Assembly (NCBI GenBank): GCA_018662005.1 | Contig: JABJHA010000016.1 | Location: forward strand, 1-64,000 | Origin: Rhodospirillaceae bacterium | GTDB lineage: Bacteria; Pseudomonadota; Alphaproteobacteria; Rhodospirillales; JABHCV01 | Direction: 5' to 3' | Length of the DNA: 64,000 nt | Made by a program: the position numbers and the translations under genes | The notes under the pieces: model-generated | What the model saw: the letters and a program-made list of their open reading frames with translations, nothing else | What the model was told of the DNA's origin: nothing | Database searches by the model: none | Part shown: one piece after another, positions 4,013 to 56,860 of the stretch | Layout: every line of letters starts with the position of its first letter | Position numbering within the stretch: position 1 is the stretch's first letter

Positions 4013-5185
4013 ATGATTCCAAACGAATTACTATCACTCGATTTTGACCTGGGCGAAACTGTCGATATGCTTCGTGCCTCGGTTTTAAGCTTCTCATCTG
4101 ATGAAATTGCGCCCCGCGCCGCCGCTATTGATGAAACCAACAATTTCCCCGCCGACTTGTGGAAAAAGCTTGGTGACCTGGGGGTGCTCGGCATCACTGC
4201 CGATGAAGATTATGGCGGTGCCGGTATGGGCTATCTTGAACATGTGGTGGCGATGGAGGAAATCAGCCGTGCTTCGGCTTCTGTGGGTTTGAGCTACGGG
4301 GCTCATTCCAATCTGTGCGTCAACCAGATCAGCCGCAACGGCAACGCAGAACAAAAACAAAAGTACCTGCCAAAACTTATTTCCGGCGATCACGTCGGCG
4401 CTTTGGCAATGAGCGAACCGGGCGCTGGTTCCGATGTGGTGTCCATGAAGCTGAAGGCCGAAAAGAAGGGTGATCGATACATTCTGAACGGCAATAAAAT
4501 GTGGATCACCAACGGCCCTGACGCTGACACTCTGGTGGTCTACGCCAAAACCGACCCGCAAGCAGAAAGCCGGGGCATTACCGCCTTTATCGTTGAGAAG
4601 GGCTTCAAGGGATTTTCGACGGCTCAAAAGCTCGACAAGCTGGGTATGCGTGGCTCCAACACCTGTGAGCTGGTGTTTGAAGATTGCGAAGTGCCGGAAG
4701 AAAATGTCATGGGCGGCATCGGTAAGGGCGTCAATGTGTTGATGAGCGGTCTTGATTACGAACGCGCCGTCCTCGCCGCCGGCCCCCTTGGCATCATGCA
4801 GTCCTGCATGGATGTGGTTGTCCCCTACATTCACGAACGCGAGCAATTCGGCAAGTCCATTGGCTCATTCCAGCTGATGCAGGGCAAGTTGGCCGATATG
4901 TACACAACCATGAACGCCTCCAAAGCCTACGTCTATGCCGTCGCCCGGGCTTGCGATAGGGGCCAGACAACCCGCAAGGACGCTGCCGGTGCGATTCTTT
5001 ACGCCTCTGAAAAGGCGACCTGGATGGCCCTTGAAGCCATTCAGTGCCTGGGCGGCACCGGTTATATCAACGAAGCCCCGACCGGGCGCCTGCTGCGCGA
5101 CGCCAAACTCTACGAAATCGGGGCCGGAACGTCGGAAATCCGCCGTTGGCTGATCGGCCGCGAGTTGTTTGATGAAACCCGGTAA
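4013..5185 (+). CDS. liuA: isovaleryl-CoA dehydrogenase
   Basis: FAD enzyme oxidising isovaleryl-CoA to 3-methylcrotonyl-CoA, the third step of leucine breakdown. The 390 residues show the acyl-CoA dehydrogenase pattern: [10 protein letters not shown] (133-142), WITNGP (164-169) and, near the C-terminus, [12 protein letters not shown]. The position normally holding the base in medium-chain enzymes is Gly here. The catalytic Glu is instead in LDYERAVLA (Glu250), the arrangement known for isovaleryl-CoA dehydrogenases, which makes the substrate call strong. It is first in the LiuR-controlled run and overlaps the next gene. The start has no obvious Shine-Dalgarno. Confidence 0.93.
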
Positions 5186-6095
5186 GTGGTTGATTGTGAT
5201 CGGTTTTGCCGTGCTTGCGGTCTCACCATATTTTTTGTGGGAACGCACCCGTGATCCCGCGCCTGATTTTTCCTATTACCTTGAGGCTCCGTCTGCCATG
5301 CGACTTGTTGAAGTGATGAGCGGTCGTCCTGACGTTGAGCGCCGTGATGTGGTGAAAGAGGCTCTTAATGCAGCCGGTATCAGCTACCTGGAGGAACAAG
5401 TTTCCAACAGGATATTCAACGGCGCCAATATCGTCGTTGAGCTCGGTGAGGGCTCTGACATGTTGGTCTTCCTCGCTCATATGGACAGGGTTGCCGAAGC
5501 GCCGGGCGCCAATGACAACGCGTCCTGCGTGGCTGCCGGTATCGATGCCCTGAAAGTCTTAACCAAAGAACCGGCAACAAAAGGCGCGCGTTTGCGTTTT
5601 ATCTTCAGTGATGGCGAGGAAAAAGGCCTGCACGGGGCCTTCCATCACGCAAACAACAATGATTTGAGCAGCGTTTTCGGTGTCGCCAGTTTCGAGCTTT
5701 GCGGCATTGGTGATGCCTTTGGTGTCTGGGATGTGGTCGGTCCTGCCCTGAATTCACCGATTGTCGCGGTTCTTCAAAAGGCTGGCCGGAATTTGAAAAT
5801 TTATAACGCTACCCACGGCGCGGTGCCCCGTTTTGGCAGTGATCATCTGGCATTTTCAAAAAAAGGACTGGCCGCCGTGGGGGTGACAGTGCTGCCCCGG
5901 GAAGATGAAGAAAAACTGCGTTCTTACGTCGATGACCCAAATAACCCGAAGTGGTTGCTGAATTTCGTTCGCCCGACCATCTTTCGGACGTATCATACAT
6001 CCGGTGATGGACCCGAGACCGTGCAACCGGCGGCATTGGAAATGATGACACGGCTGATGGTGGAAACGGTCCGCGTGGTCGATCAGCAGAATTAA
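5172..6095 (+). CDS. membrane-anchored M28-family metallopeptidase-like protein
   Basis: A 307-residue protein with an N-terminal hydrophobic segment (about residues 6-24) that should anchor a periplasmic domain. The zinc-aminopeptidase pattern of family M28 is visible: AHMDRV with the first His, PGANDNASC with the bridging Asp, [10 protein letters not shown] with the Glu pair, and YHTSGD with the late His. The substrate is unknown. It overlaps the ivd 3' end, so it sits inside the leucine operon, an unusual place for a peptidase. It might feed amino acids, or it may act on a small amide. An in-frame TTG directly precedes the chosen ATG. Confidence 0.75.
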
Positions 6096-21951: not shown

Positions 21952-21984
21952 GGGGATGGAATTTCAAATTCCATCCCCTTTTTT
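21952..21984 (+). terminator. Rho-independent terminator after the parvulin gene
   Basis: GGGGATGGAATTT (21952-21964) pairs with AAATTCCATCCCC (21966-21978), a 13-bp stem with almost no loop, followed by six T residues. This is the clearest intrinsic terminator in the window. Read on the other strand it would lack a T-run of the same quality. Confidence 0.85.
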
Positions 21985-21988
21985 ATGA

Positions 21989-22282
21989 TTATTTTTTAGA
22001 TTTCAGAACGCCTCGCTTGGTGCGAAATTCCTCTTCATCAATTTCGCCCTTGGCGTAGCGGTCGCTTAAAGTCGCCAATGCACTGCCTGTTCCGCCATGG
22101 TTGCAGAGTCCACTGCCGTGGGCGCCGCGCCGAAATAACCAGATCAGCAGAACAACAAAGCCGATAATCAAAAGGATCGAAAAGGGGCCATGCATCAAGC
22201 CCCAGCCATGGTGGCCGACGCCACCCCAGCCATTGTTCATATATCCGGCGTTCATGAAGCCATTTACGGTTTCGTTATACAT
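21989..22282 (-). CDS. small SHOCT-domain membrane protein
   Basis: The 97-residue protein has a Gly/Met/His/Asn-rich N-terminus (GFMNAGYMNNGWGGVGHHGW, about 8-27), one membrane segment (about 34-50, FSILLIIGFVVLLIWLF) and a C-terminal SHOCT motif LSDRYAKGEIDEEEFRTKR. SHOCT proteins are common small envelope proteins of unclear role. AAGGAG lies before the ATG. It follows the Met-rich exported protein on the same strand, with a probable terminator between them. The shared Met/His/Gly composition suggests metal or stress association (inference). Confidence 0.78.
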   Translation of the reverse strand: MYNETVNGFMNAGYMNNGWGGVGHHGWGLMHGPFSILLIIGFVVLLIWLFRRGAHGSGLCNHGGTGSALATLSDRYAKGEIDEEEFRTKRGVLKSKK

Positions 22283-22301
22283 TGTAAAATCTCCTTAAAT
22301 T

Positions 22302-22347
22302 GAAAAAATTAGCGACCGACGTAGAGGGGGAGTAAACGCCGGTCGCT
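22302..22347 (-). terminator. hairpin between Met-rich and SHOCT genes
   Basis: On the minus strand AGCGACCG pairs with CGGTCGCT around a 21-base loop and is followed by a run of six T residues (22303-22308). A second small stem, CGCCGC/GCGGCG, precedes it at 22348-22360. Probably a partial terminator that lets SHOCT transcription differ from that of the upstream gene. Confidence 0.55.
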
Positions 22348-22382
22348 CGCCGCAGCGGCGGGGGAGTCACCGTGTGCGGAAT

Positions 22383-22802
22383 TTATTTGATCGGGCGATG
22401 TGCCCCGGTTCTGGTGTCGAATTGGATTTTGTGGACCAGTGAATCGTCAACGGTGACGATTTCGACAACGATGGCGTCCTCGCCTTGGGCTTCGACTTTG
22501 CCAACCTTCAGGCGGTCGTTGCCGTGCATCTTCAGACGACTTTCGACGATTTCCTTGACGTCATCGACGCCAAGGTCGCGATCAACGCCCGATTGCTGCA
22601 TCTGGCCGCAAGGCGCATTGCCGGAACCCATCATGCCGTATCCATGGCCCTGAGACCCCATCATGCCCTGGTTATAACCGTGGCCCATTTGTCCACCGTA
22701 GCCCTGGGATCCATGGGAAAAGGCTGGGACGGTACTGAAAGCGGCAACGCCGAGTACGAGAGCCGTTGCGGCGATACTGAGTACGAGATTTTTGCGTTTC
22801 AT
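22383..22802 (-). CDS. exported Met/His/Gly-rich protein with PepSY-like C-terminus
   Basis: The 139-residue protein has a signal peptide (positive start, hydrophobic 7-22, likely cleavage after AFS at residue 29). A low-complexity region (30-68) follows, rich in Gly, Met, His and Gln, such as GQMGHGY, GMMGSQGHGYGMMGSG and one Cys. The C-terminal part (73-139) has alternating strands similar to PepSY-type modules. Methionine/histidine clusters in periplasmic proteins are typical of Cu(I)/Ag(I) handling; the metal is inferred. AAGGAG lies 6 bases before the ATG. It is divergent from the adjacent two-component system, which may control it. Confidence 0.7.
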   Translation of the reverse strand: MKRKNLVLSIAATALVLGVAAFSTVPAFSHGSQGYGGQMGHGYNQGMMGSQGHGYGMMGSGNAPCGQMQQSGVDRDLGVDDVKEIVESRLKMHGNDRLKVGKVEAQGEDAIVVEIVTVDDSLVHKIQFDTRTGAHRPIK

Positions 22803-22981
22803 GACAATCTCCTTGTTTGTCGTGTCAATTTCATTCGATGAGGACATTTGAACACGCATTTGTATCGGGGATGTTTCGGCCACACGGGCTTTTTGTAACA
22901 AACTATTGCCTGGAACCCTGCAGCAACGTTCGGTTACCAAGAATTGACCCACCCCGGGCGAGTTTTGGCTATAGTCATCAA

Positions 22982-23710
22982 ATGAACAGTTCTGAACACA
23001 TTTTGATTGTCGACGACGACAAGGAAATTCGCGACCTGCTGGGGCGATTCCTCGATAAGCACGGCCTGCGTGTGACGACGGCGTCAGGCGGGCGCGAGAT
23101 GAAGACGGCGCTTGCCGACTGGAACATCGATCTCGTCGTCCTCGACCTGATGATGCCGGGCGAAGATGGCCTGACCCTGTGTCGCAACTTGCGTTCTGAA
23201 TCAAATATTCCCGTTATCATGCTGACAGCCATGGGCGAGGAAACGGATCGTATTATCGGCCTGGAAATGGGCGCCGATGATTATCTCGCCAAGCCCTTTA
23301 ATCCACGTGAATTACTGGCACGCGTCAAGGCTGTTTTGCGGCGTAGCGCTGATCGCCCAACACGAAAATCCCAAAGTGACGAAGAACAAAAAATGACACG
23401 CTACGTCTTTTCAGGCTGGGCCCTGGAAGTCGAACGACGCGAACTGTTTTCCCCTTCGGGCGCGCTGGTGCCACTCAGCGGCGGTGAATTTGAACTGCTT
23501 CTGGCTTTCATCACCCATCCGGGCCGGGTGATGAACCGCGACCAGTTGCTTGATCTTGCGCGTGGCCGCGAAGCGCAACCCTTTGACCGTTCAATCGATG
23601 TTCAGGTCAGCCGCCTGCGCCGTAAAATAGAGGATGATCCGAAAAATCCGTCTCTGATTAAAACCGTGCGTAGCGGCGGTTATCTTTTCGCCTCCGAGGT
23701 CAGTCAATGA
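22982..23710 (+). CDS. OmpR/PhoB-family response regulator
   Basis: The 242-residue protein has a receiver with Asp pair DDDKE, phosphoacceptor Asp in VVLDLMMPGEDG, Thr in MLTAMG and Lys in LAKPFNP. It is followed by an OmpR-type winged helix with LSGGEFELLLAFITHPGRV, DVQVSRLRRKIEDDP and the terminal GGYLF. It should be a DNA-binding transcription factor activated by the kinase encoded next, with which it overlaps (ATGA). The ATG at 22982 starts the receiver directly; a longer reading from 22817 would cross the divergent promoter region. Confidence 0.92.
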   Translation: MNSSEHILIVDDDKEIRDLLGRFLDKHGLRVTTASGGREMKTALADWNIDLVVLDLMMPGEDGLTLCRNLRSESNIPVIMLTAMGEETDRIIGLEMGADDYLAKPFNPRELLARVKAVLRRSADRPTRKSQSDEEQKMTRYVFSGWALEVERRELFSPSGALVPLSGGEFELLLAFITHPGRVMNRDQLLDLARGREAQPFDRSIDVQVSRLRRKIEDDPKNPSLIKTVRSGGYLFASEVSQ

Positions 23711-25176
23711 AATTCCGGACACCCGGTTTTTGTGATCACCGCACCATTGTCGGGCGGACGGTCCTGTTGCTGCTGGCCGGGCTTGTCATCTCGCATCTGA
23801 TCAGCATTGCCATTTATTCCGACGAACGACGCACGGCCCTTCTTACGGTTGGCGGGCGTCAGGTGTCTGAACGGATCGCCGCAGCTTATCTGAACATCGA
23901 TCGAGCCAACCCGCAGCAACGCAAAAGTTCCATTCAGGCTTTGTGGGAACCGATGTTCAGCATTACATGGACGAAGCAAAGCGTTCTTGCTGATGGTTCG
24001 CATGGCGGCTGGCGCGCCCACATGGTGCGGACCACAATCGCCGATTTCCTGACAGGTATTGATAGCAAAAAAATTCGCATCAACTATGGCCATCTCGGTC
24101 AATTTCGCCCTGGTATGACACCGGGAACGGGTATGGCGCCGGGCGATCCGGTGGTCGCCATGCAGGAACACATGGGGCGAATGATGGGAGAGGGTTCCGG
24201 TCACATGCGTAAGCGCTTCGACAGTTTCTCCCGCAAATGGCACGGCGACAGTGTGCTCAGTGTGTCCATAGAGCTTACCGATGGCAGCTGGTTCAATGTG
24301 GCGACGCCCGGAACCCGCTTGCGTTCAGCCTGGTGGAGCCGGGTTTTCGGGCCCATCATCGTGACCACGATCATCGTTCTTTTCCTGACTTTCTGGGCTG
24401 TCAGGCGTTCAGCCAAACCGTTGGCCCTGTTCGCCCAGGCCGCCGAACGGCTGGGCCGTGATGTCAACGCGCCGCCGATGCCCGAAGACGGCCCAAAGGA
24501 AGTGCTCAGCGCCTCTCGCGCCTTCAATGAAATGCAAAGAAGACTGCAAAGCTTCATCAAGGACCGGACTCATATGCTGGCGGCCATATCTCATGATTTG
24601 AGGACCCCCATCACCCGTTTGCGGCTGCGCGCCGAATTGATTGACGATCCGGAACAGCAAGCAAAGATGCTCGCCGATCTCGATCAAATGGAGCAGATGA
24701 TCGCCGCCACCCTGTCCTTCGCCCGCGACGAGGCGACTGACGAGGTTTCCGTTCGTTTCGATCTTGCGGCGATGTTGCAAAGCCTGACGGGCGATATTTC
24801 CGATACCAACGGCAAAGCGTCATACGATGGGCCCGACAAACTTGAATGGACGGGCCGCCCGGGGGCTCTCAAACGGGCTTTTCAGAATTTGGCTGATAAC
24901 GCCATCAAGTACGGCGGACGTGCCGATATCTCATTACTGGTTAAGGACGCGGGGCTTGTCGTCAGCGTTGCCGATGACGGCCCGGGCATTCCCGAGAGCG
25001 AACAGGAACGGGTATTCGACCCGTTCTACAGGATCGATCCATCGCGCAACCGCGATACCGGCGGGGTGGGGCTCGGTCTTGCGGTGACACGTTCCGTCGT
25101 CCGCGCCCATGGTGGCGAGATTTCGTTCGATTACGATGATCGTTTTGTGGTCGTCGTTAACTTGCCGAAGACTTAA
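23707..25176 (+). CDS. sensor histidine kinase with Met-rich periplasmic loop
   Basis: EnvZ-like kinase, 489 residues. It has TM1 (about 18-37), a periplasmic sensor (38-213), TM2 (214-232), HAMP, the phosphoacceptor His296 in AISHDLRTP, and catalytic NLADNAIKYGG, DDGPGIP and GGVGLGLAVTR. Residues 137-167 of the sensor hold seven Met (137, 143, 152, 156, 159, 160, 167) plus His155 and His166. That resembles Cu(I)/Ag(I)-binding Met motifs and echoes the exported Met-rich protein encoded divergently. The ligand is therefore inferred to be a soft metal, not shown. It converges on pyrE with a 4-base overlap. Confidence 0.9.
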   Translation: MKFRTPGFCDHRTIVGRTVLLLLAGLVISHLISIAIYSDERRTALLTVGGRQVSERIAAAYLNIDRANPQQRKSSIQALWEPMFSITWTKQSVLADGSHGGWRAHMVRTTIADFLTGIDSKKIRINYGHLGQFRPGMTPGTGMAPGDPVVAMQEHMGRMMGEGSGHMRKRFDSFSRKWHGDSVLSVSIELTDGSWFNVATPGTRLRSAWWSRVFGPIIVTTIIVLFLTFWAVRRSAKPLALFAQAAERLGRDVNAPPMPEDGPKEVLSASRAFNEMQRRLQSFIKDRTHMLAAISHDLRTPITRLRLRAELIDDPEQQAKMLADLDQMEQMIAATLSFARDEATDEVSVRFDLAAMLQSLTGDISDTNGKASYDGPDKLEWTGRPGALKRAFQNLADNAIKYGGRADISLLVKDAGLVVSVADDGPGIPESEQERVFDPFYRIDPSRNRDTGGVGLGLAVTRSVVRAHGGEISFDYDDRFVVVVNLPKT

Positions 25177-56407: not shown

Positions 56408-56860
56408 ATGACGAAAACACAGAGCTCGGAAATATGCAAACATGCCAGCCCTGAGCAGACAAACTGCTGGGCCCGTTGGTTGTTTTTGGGCTTCGGGTGG
56501 CTGAACGTTGGGCTGGGTTTGATTGGTGTCGTTGTGCCGGGTATGCCGACGACTGTTTTTCTTATTGCTGCACTTTGGGCTTTCTCAAAAAGTTCTGAAC
56601 GGTTCCGCCTGTGGTTGTGGAACCATCCGCGGTTTGGATCGACCATACGAGATTGGCACGAGCACAAGGTTATACCCTATAAAGCTAAAATCATGGCGAC
56701 TTCCATGATGGCAATGAGCTTTGTTTTGGTTTCTGTTATGGCCGATGACATGACAAAACCGCTGATCCTGTTGGCGGTGATGACGCCGGCAGCCTTGTAC
56801 GTCAACACCCGGGCCAGTGTTGTGCCGGTCAGCCGCAATGAGCAAAATTTAAGAAGATAG
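56408..56860 (+). CDS. DUF454 (YbaN-like) membrane protein
   Basis: The 150-residue protein has membrane segments near 24-60 (WLFLGFGWLNVGLGLIGVVV then PGMPTTVFLIAALWAFSKSS) and a last pair near 98-130. PGMPTTVFLIAALWAFSKSSERFRLW is the signature of the DUF454/YbaN family, of unknown function. A cytoplasmic charged loop, HEHKVIPYKAK, lies between. It converges on the SDR gene, overlapping by 12 bases. Confidence 0.85.
   Translation: MTKTQSSEICKHASPEQTNCWARWLFLGFGWLNVGLGLIGVVVPGMPTTVFLIAALWAFSKSSERFRLWLWNHPRFGSTIRDWHEHKVIPYKAKIMATSMMAMSFVLVSVMADDMTKPLILLAVMTPAALYVNTRASVVPVSRNEQNLRR

Follow-up and report, generated by a model that had tools for sequence, protein, structure and literature searches.

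The gene cluster that is the subject of this report is located in the 3.5-Mb draft genome of a Rhodospirillaceae bacterium (assembly GCA_018662005.1); the window, that is, the whole stretch of DNA that was analyzed, consists of the first 64,000 nucleotides of contig 16 (JABJHA010000016.1). The cluster contains four genes, with a SHOCT-domain membrane protein and an exported protein (EXP) encoded by the minus strand and a response regulator (RR) and a sensor histidine kinase (HK) encoded by the plus strand (Table 1). A sequence-only reading of the window had proposed that these genes constitute an undescribed soft-metal sensing module; the gene coordinates and the Met-rich tracts that it located in EXP (residues 30–68, with 6 Met, 3 His, and 14 Gly in 39) and in HK (residues 137–167, with 7 Met and 2 His in 31) are exact by recount. 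The Met/His/Gly-rich N-terminus that it assigned to the SHOCT protein is present (residues 1–40 contain 4 Met, the start counted, 3 His, and 9 Gly), but its enrichment in Met is mild, with at most 3 Met per 31 residues after the start. We conclude that an OmpR/EnvZ-class system whose accessory, of the CpxP/DbfQ kind, is exchangeable most likely describes the cluster better than a classical copper resistance system does. PADLOC and Rfam gave no match.

Table 1. Positions of the genes, protein segments, and putative regulatory sites of the cluster in the window.
Feature	Position	Strand	Basis or remark
SHOCT-domain membrane protein, 97 residues	21992-22282	-	Gly/Trp/His/Met-rich N-terminus, one hydrophobic segment, SHOCT residues 68-90
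EXP, exported protein, 139 residues	22386-22802	-	signal peptide (by eye), Met/Gly/His tract, C-terminal alpha-beta4 domain
EXP Met/Gly/His-rich tract, residues 30-68	22599-22715	-	residue count
EXP C-terminal domain, possibly PepSY-like, residues 73-139	22386-22586	-	alignment; predicted structure
OmpR-class response regulator (RR), 242 residues	22982-23710	+	PF00072 and PF00486
Sensor histidine kinase (HK), 489 residues, EnvZ/CpxA-like core	23707-25176	+	HAMP, HisKA, HATPase_c
HK Met-rich periplasmic loop, residues 137-167	24115-24207	+	within insert of the sensor domain, which spans about residues 34-205
Palindromic terminator-like site	21952-21978		closes the SHOCT side of the cluster
12-pair hairpin followed by U6, terminator- or attenuator-like	22303-22347	-	between EXP and SHOCT
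Possible operator site A, EXP-proximal, TTGTATCGGGGATGTTTC	22860-22877	none	by-eye reading of intergenic sequences
Operator-like site B, TTTGTAAC AAAC TATTGC	22892-22909	none	inside profile match 22891-22942
Operator-like site C, GCAAC GTTCG GTTAC	22923-22937	none	13 bp after site B
TATAGT, -10-like box	22970-22975	+	6 bp ahead of the RR start codon

The two-component system and its divergent partner in relatives

The best NCBIfam models for RR and HK are OmpR (273 bits) and EnvZ (179 bits), both below the equivalog cut-offs (331 and 415 bits, respectively); the models for heavy-metal Cu/Ag systems (CusRS/CopRS/CzcRS; TIGR01386 and TIGR01387) also miss their cut-offs (130.8 of 292.55 bits for HK and 138.7 of 279.2 bits for RR). 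Among four regulators from E. coli K-12, RR is most similar to OmpR (49% identity), followed by CpxR (44%), CusR (37%), and RstA (36%); when HK is compared with the E. coli kinases only the core aligns, with a score of 122 bits for both EnvZ and CpxA. A regulator tree places RR near E. coli OmpR, weakly, that is, with OmpR as the sole near reference, good support for 5 of 31 inner branches, and one row (L221) in the wrong frame because the start of its contig cuts the flank. The source genome encodes a second OmpR-like regulator (45% identity); two EnvZ-OmpR systems are described as frequent in alphaproteobacteria (PMC9208753). Searches with the sensor domain of the kinase found nothing at E < 0.001 with Foldseek; with VIA-align, a Bacillus subtilis domain (Z 6.3) and the periplasmic domain of RisS (Z 6.0) were followed by WalK and Cache domains, matches that are too weak for a ligand to be named from them. 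By these sequence comparisons, the two-component system is of the OmpR/EnvZ class and not of the CusRS/CopRS type.

EXP homologues are found in 51 of 100 genomes in the nearest sample (the source genome counted), 27 of 289 in the class sample, and 6 of 398 in the phylum sample; the samples overlap, and the last, which adds a single genome (G607) beyond the order and class samples, says little about other classes. Titled contigs that contain an EXP relative number 28: 20 are from Rhodospirillales/Rhodospirillaceae or Magnetovibrio (including the isolate M. blakemorei MV-1, whose locus L092 contains the module), six are Alphaproteobacteria or Proteobacteria by label only, and two are metagenome-assembled genomes labelled Nitrospinota and Marinimicrobia. 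We read 87 EXP loci, with several from some genomes and some cut by contig ends. RR is located on the stretch at 51 of these, and in all 51 the EXP gene is divergent from it, so the divergent arrangement in the sequence-only reading is borne out; at the remaining 36 RR is not on the stretch. No two of the 51 intergenic regions are identical, the 87 loci encode 86 distinct EXP C-termini, and the identity of RR across loci ranges from 50 to 95%. The divergent EXP/RR unit is old in the order.

At most of the loci, the region upstream of RR contains TTTGTAACnnnnTGTTnC, 13 bp, and GTTACnnnnnGTTAC, that is, GTWAC-type 10-bp direct repeats; direct repeats of 10 bp are expected for binding by OmpR-family regulators. 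A score of at least 18 of 22 at the fixed 13-bp gap is reached by 39 of the 51 regions and by none of 2040 shuffles. The same score is found in none of 2,972 random stretches taken from outside the region and in 28 of 88 that touch it (a first random-stretch control, with 21 matches in 2040, did not set the latter apart). With a score of at least 19, the 13-bp gap identifies 38 regions, and any other gap from 6 to 23 bp identifies at most 5. An operator profile was built from 34 of the 51 regions, with the window sequence in the training set; when both strands of the source genome were scanned with E up to 1, no second place was found (stricter filters were used for the scan of many genomes).

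The profile also matches elsewhere in other genomes. A match precedes an outer-membrane efflux (OEP) gene at L181 (G038:C130:73429; E 3e-6) and at L178 (G014:C10:177324; E 8e-7), so RR may control an efflux channel in that family; matches are also located ahead of a sugar-binding protein gene in G033 and G050 (E ~3e-4) and near other genes in G014 and G040. In G039, a 27-bp part of the profile matches near many contig ends (E 0.155); a repeat that interrupts the assembly may be the cause.

On the RR side, a TAT(A/G)NT box is separated from the start codon by exactly 6 bp at 26 of the 51 loci (the window among them, with TATAGT), and a −10-like box is present 2–14 bp from the start at 31 of 51 loci, compared with 144 of 5100 shuffles. 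A box 6 bp from the start codon predicts a leaderless mRNA; the RR transcript is, therefore, likely to be leaderless, and conserved in this respect. On the other side, the hairpin between EXP and SHOCT has a folding energy of −21.5 kcal/mol (z −4.1, with 0 of 200 shuffles as stable); a consensus scan does not list it because its loop exceeds the limit of 8. This hairpin is probably an attenuator that separates the expression of the two genes, lowering SHOCT relative to EXP. Neither the hairpin nor the −10-like box nor the operator figures in the sequence-only reading.

The divergent position opposite RR is not always occupied by EXP. Of the 60 genomes covered by the operator-profile scan, 36 were read at the RR orthologue locus; in 24 of these 36 genomes the divergent slot contains EXP, and the twelve relatives that lack a full EXP in the slot keep the regulator. 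In six of the twelve (G027, G029, G047, G048, G008, and G053) the slot protein scores over the Pfam cut-off for LTXXQ (CpxP/Spy), and in three (G035, G051, and G023) it is an EF-hand protein. The slot protein of G004 (L189, about 5017–5343) combines a signal peptide with a Met/His/Lys tract and lacks a folded C-terminal domain, and a SHOCT-like gene then follows; G042 encodes an exported Gly/Met-rich protein without a family, and G026 encodes no exported protein there, with an FtsE-like ATPase (by eye) in its place. The E-values of the operator in the twelve genomes range from 5e-10 to 0.25. Gly/Met-rich tracts occur in several of the slot proteins irrespective of the folded domain (in the eight proteins counted, the 60 residues past position 25 contain 1–10 Met). 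In G030 and G044, a close RR orthologue was not found (44% identity and none, respectively).

The exported family and its copper neighborhood

EXP has no Pfam family and no NCBIfam family of weight; a match to SecD (0.009) was taken as chance. When 36 members were searched against Pfam, the matches were scattered and weak, the best being to DUF5320 (0.0005, in one member), with DUF4148 in four; EXP did not match LTXXQ (PF07813; CpxP/Spy) or DUF305 (CopM-type copper proteins) in Pfam. Its sequence profile gave two matches only in the PDB, both with E > 0.8, and neither EXP nor the consensus of its domain matched the plasmid records. Common to the members are a signal peptide, a Met/Gly/His tract whose length varies, and a C-terminal domain in which the motifs GNDRLKVGKV and EIVTVDDSLV are found. 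EXP is a Met-rich exported family of its own, without a Pfam match.

In the AlphaFold model, residues 1–70 have no confident structure (predicted local distance difference test, pLDDT, < 50), and residues 73–139 form a helix (79–92) and four strands with pLDDT values of 75–94 in blocks of ten. The best fold row for this domain is the C-terminal domain of YpeB, which we take to be a PepSY protein (Z 6.8, root-mean-square deviation 3.0, 63 residues aligned), and this match is weak. True PepSY proteins (Pfam PF03413), distinct from EXP, occur in 18 of 40 related genomes (L198–L217).

The tract of EXP contains at least 5% Met at 43 of 48 loci and is steadier in this respect than the loop of the kinase. 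In the window, the HK loop ties for the highest density of Met per 31 residues among 70 non-overlapping open reading frames (the other frame with 7 Met in 31 residues, 56408–56860, is hydrophobic and, by eye, has the look of a small membrane protein), and in the model it is of low confidence (pLDDT 46–63). The sequence-only reading had named a lack of Met conservation in orthologous kinases as one of two refutations of the soft-metal proposal, and on this point the proposal is half refuted: the loop contains at least 5% Met in just 24 of 48, with Asp/Glu- or Arg/Gly-rich inserts in the others, and this argues against copper. Across the 48 loci, the compositions of the EXP tract and the kinase loop are correlated (Spearman 0.51 for Met, 0.57 for Asp/Glu, and 0.50 for His); we dropped this co-variation as evidence, as it became weaker and inconsistent when contrasts were used (vide infra).

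The SHOCT assignment in the window is from Pfam (PF09851; 33.7 bits over a cut-off of 27, E 2.8e-8). A SHOCT-like reading frame is located beside EXP on the same strand at 14 of the 87 EXP loci (BLAST E < 1e-3, without masking); beyond the window, Pfam confirms that of L119 only. The neighborhood that the sequence-only reading had suggested seeking in relatives is, thus, found, with SHOCT behind EXP at 6 of the 51 loci that contain the two-component system; SHOCT is also behind EXP at 8 of the 36 loci that do not (5 genomes).

At EXP loci without the system, a P1B ATPase is encoded within 6 kb at 15 of 36, 12 of them Cu-type by motif (10 of 32 genomes); with the system, a Cu-type P1B ATPase is encoded within 6 kb at 1 of 51. 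At four loci, the Cu-type ATPase gene is 30–132 bp from EXP on the same strand, downstream of EXP at L037, L062, and L130 and upstream at L068. Ten neighboring ATPases were scanned, and nine score higher with copper than with Zn/Cd models, L128 being the reverse; the ATPase of L113 is also Zn/Cd-like, and the Cu calls at L121, L124, L126, and L141 are by motif alone. At L068, EXP also neighbors CopB and a multicopper oxidase of the copper-resistance kind, and at L119 it neighbors SCO1/SenC. From these neighborhoods, the EXP family is linked statistically, and indirectly, to copper export.

Outside the order, EXP is present in multiple copies in two genomes that belong to a single genus, with three full copies in G333 (L119, L124, and L125) and two in G233 (L121 and L126), plus one partial copy each. 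SHOCT is next to EXP at each of the five loci, four of which have Cu-type ATPases nearby; these are amplified EXP-SHOCT pairs in metal islands.

The sequence-only reading had noted that known copper genes are absent. This holds for P1B ATPases on the contig (in the source genome they were found on contigs 37 and 2 and not on contig 16) and for the multicopper oxidase family PF07732 (Cu-oxidase_3), which was not found in the source genome; CusF was not searched as a family, nor were RND exporters searched. One of the ATPases of the source genome is CopA-like (CPC and YN motifs), on another contig, with a MerR-family gene ~1.7 kb away; a second P1B ATPase adjoins a cco-like gene cluster (by eye).

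Signal and mechanism

We lean, with modest confidence, toward an OmpR/EnvZ-class envelope-stress system with a divergent, regulator-controlled periplasmic accessory that acts as CpxP does on CpxA or DbfQ on DbfS. The same layout, the shared operator, and the exchange with LTXXQ proteins identify EXP as a candidate accessory of the CpxP/DbfQ kind. Copper is favored as the signal because the EXP copies outside the system are located near P1B ATPases (15 of 36 loci, 12 of them with a Cu-type ATPase, vs 1 of 51), and the accessory is perhaps tuned to Cu/Ag. In the mechanism that we propose, phosphorylated RR would bind the GTWAC-type repeats and drive its own leaderless transcript as well as that of EXP; the exported EXP would bind the sensor of the kinase via its C-terminal domain and set the balance between kinase and phosphatase activities. 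Binding of Cu(I)/Ag(I), or modification under envelope stress, would take place in the Met/Gly/His tract of EXP, which is disordered, and for this genus in the Met loop of the kinase as well, and would release or recruit EXP. The SHOCT protein would be a membrane partner expressed at a lower level.

Several observations weigh against this proposal. For the PepSY-like domain, the YpeB row ties with unrelated rows from Z 6.0, a range in which chance folds occur, and a Foldseek search with EXP found nothing at E < 0.001. In hhalign, EXP aligns with a profile of the real PepSY domains of the relatives in the last strands (E 0.003, probability 11%) and with a narrower PepSY set at E 0.01 (probability 4%); the EXP of the window has no Pfam PepSY match, and PepSY_2 is found in 1 of 36 members (E 0.044). 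Because these fold and sequence matches are weak, the PepSY-like label is a lead rather than a statement of membership. For the operator, the match in the window is by construction, as the profile was made from these same regions, and 12 of the 51 regions lack the operator at the threshold (L042, L044, L048, L058, L061, L066, L070, L132, L137, and L142–L144); these include all three members of one family (L142–L144), and L048, L061, and L070 have the operator with a 14-bp gap instead. The operator match is weak in G008, G023, G053, and G026 (E 0.04 to 0.25), so the slot assignment in these genomes rests on RR (58–67% identical). The composition contrasts between tract and loop give r 0.38 for Met (p 0.005, signs agreeing in 22 of 44), 0.30 for His (p 0.02, 28 of 41), and 0.18 for Asp/Glu (p 0.12, 27 of 39), and no copper ATPase was found beside the module in the source genome.

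The Cu-type P1B ATPases within 6 kb of 12 of the 36 EXP loci without the system, the recurrence of EXP-SHOCT pairs among such loci, and the operon that CopM, a Met/His-rich exported copper protein, shares with CopRS (PMC4335983) would all be explained by a dedicated Cu/Ag response, in which the Met loop of the kinase binds Cu(I), RR induces EXP as a metal sponge (like CopM or SilE), and the SHOCT protein helps to pass the metal to the membrane; EXP would then be an effector and not a regulator of the kinase. We judge this to be rather unlikely: half of the kinase orthologues have no Met loop, the heavy-metal NCBIfam models are below their cut-offs, no P1B ATPase is located within 6 kb at 50 of the 51 RR loci (other exporters were not searched), 3 of the 15 neighboring ATPases are not Cu-type by motif, and the slot can be taken by EF-hand and LTXXQ proteins. 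The soft-metal proposal of the sequence-only reading is supported in part; the unit is conserved and the EXP family has a link to copper export, but the system is of the OmpR/EnvZ class and misses the heavy-metal cut-offs.

At the other extreme, the cluster could be an ordinary EnvZ/OmpR-type osmotic or envelope system in which the Met stretches are incidental low complexity and EXP is a housekeeping periplasmic chaperone. The 49% identity of RR with OmpR, the highest of the four compared, is as expected for such a system, as are the wide variation in the composition of the tract and the second OmpR-like regulator in a group in which paired EnvZ-OmpR systems are said to be common (PMC9208753). 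This explanation is improbable given that the EXP tract retains at least 5% Met at 43 of 48 loci, that the slot protein of L189 keeps a Met/His tract without a folded domain, and that EXP is associated with Cu ATPases. The Met residues might also sense oxidants (e.g., hypochlorous acid) by forming sulfoxides instead of binding metal. Spy, a periplasmic chaperone, belongs to the LTXXQ kind that shares the slot. Oxidation of Met and its repair are reported for Spy (PMC12503329); however, the association that we found is with Cu ATPases, and we regard oxidant sensing as very improbable.

Returning to the regulated accessory that we prefer, the exchange in the slot allows a broader proposal, which we offer tentatively and consider doubtful: RR, the kinase, and the operator may serve as an invariant chassis into which different periplasmic sensor cartridges are exchanged across one order, namely unrelated exported proteins of the Met-rich PepSY-like, LTXXQ chaperone, EF-hand (calcium-binding), and bare Met/His-tract kinds, so that each cartridge would make the kinase answer a different envelope signal, Cu/Ag in the genus of the window. 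To our knowledge, few OmpR/EnvZ-like kinases outside the enterics have a known input; the slot, where PepSY-like, CpxP-like, and EF-hand proteins stand in for one another next to one RR, offers a natural experiment on whether the signal follows the small protein when the kinase stays the same. The Met-rich EXP family recurs, at times with SHOCT, beside copper exporters and is, therefore, a candidate periplasmic copper-handling part.

Comparison with known systems

Our searches of the open-licence literature, at the level of titles and the starts of abstracts, found no description of such a module other than the DbfQRS line. The EnvZ1-OmpR1/EnvZ2-OmpR2 systems of alphaproteobacteria resemble the cluster in class, and the source genome also has two OmpR-like regulators. 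SilE, the silver sponge, is Met/His-rich. It is a disordered periplasmic metal-binding protein (PMC5008109), as the tract of EXP may be; EXP differs from it in having a C-terminal domain that is folded and a two-component system encoded divergently. In Synechocystis, the exported, Met/His-rich protein CopM is encoded with a two-component system, CopRS (PMC4335983); however, CopM has a DUF305 domain and the exporter operon copBAC is likewise under the control of CopRS, whereas EXP lacks DUF305 and no exporter of this sort was seen adjoining the module.

The closest parallels in layout are with accessory-regulated systems. The cpxP gene of E. coli diverges from cpxRA. Of the targets of CpxR, CpxP responds to envelope stress with the strongest induction, and it inhibits CpxA as feedback (PMC4985592). 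The likeness includes an OmpR-family RR with its kinase, a divergent periplasmic accessory, and the LTXXQ proteins in the slot of six relatives; the differences are that EXP has no LTXXQ domain, that RR is closer to OmpR (49%) than to CpxR (44%), and that the geometry of the operator is its own and is fixed. DbfQ of Vibrio cholerae, a small periplasmic PepSY protein encoded beside an OmpR-family system, binds the sensor of the kinase and shifts it to phosphatase activity, and some PepSY-containing two-component modules are reported to have their adjacent genes on opposite strands (PMC12714742). In the window and at 51 of the 87 EXP loci, a small exported, possibly PepSY-like protein is similarly encoded beside an OmpR-family RR-HK pair; unlike DbfQ, EXP has a Met/Gly tract, is missed by the Pfam PepSY models, is divergent at 51 of 51 RR loci, has SHOCT partners at some, and exchanges its slot with other families.

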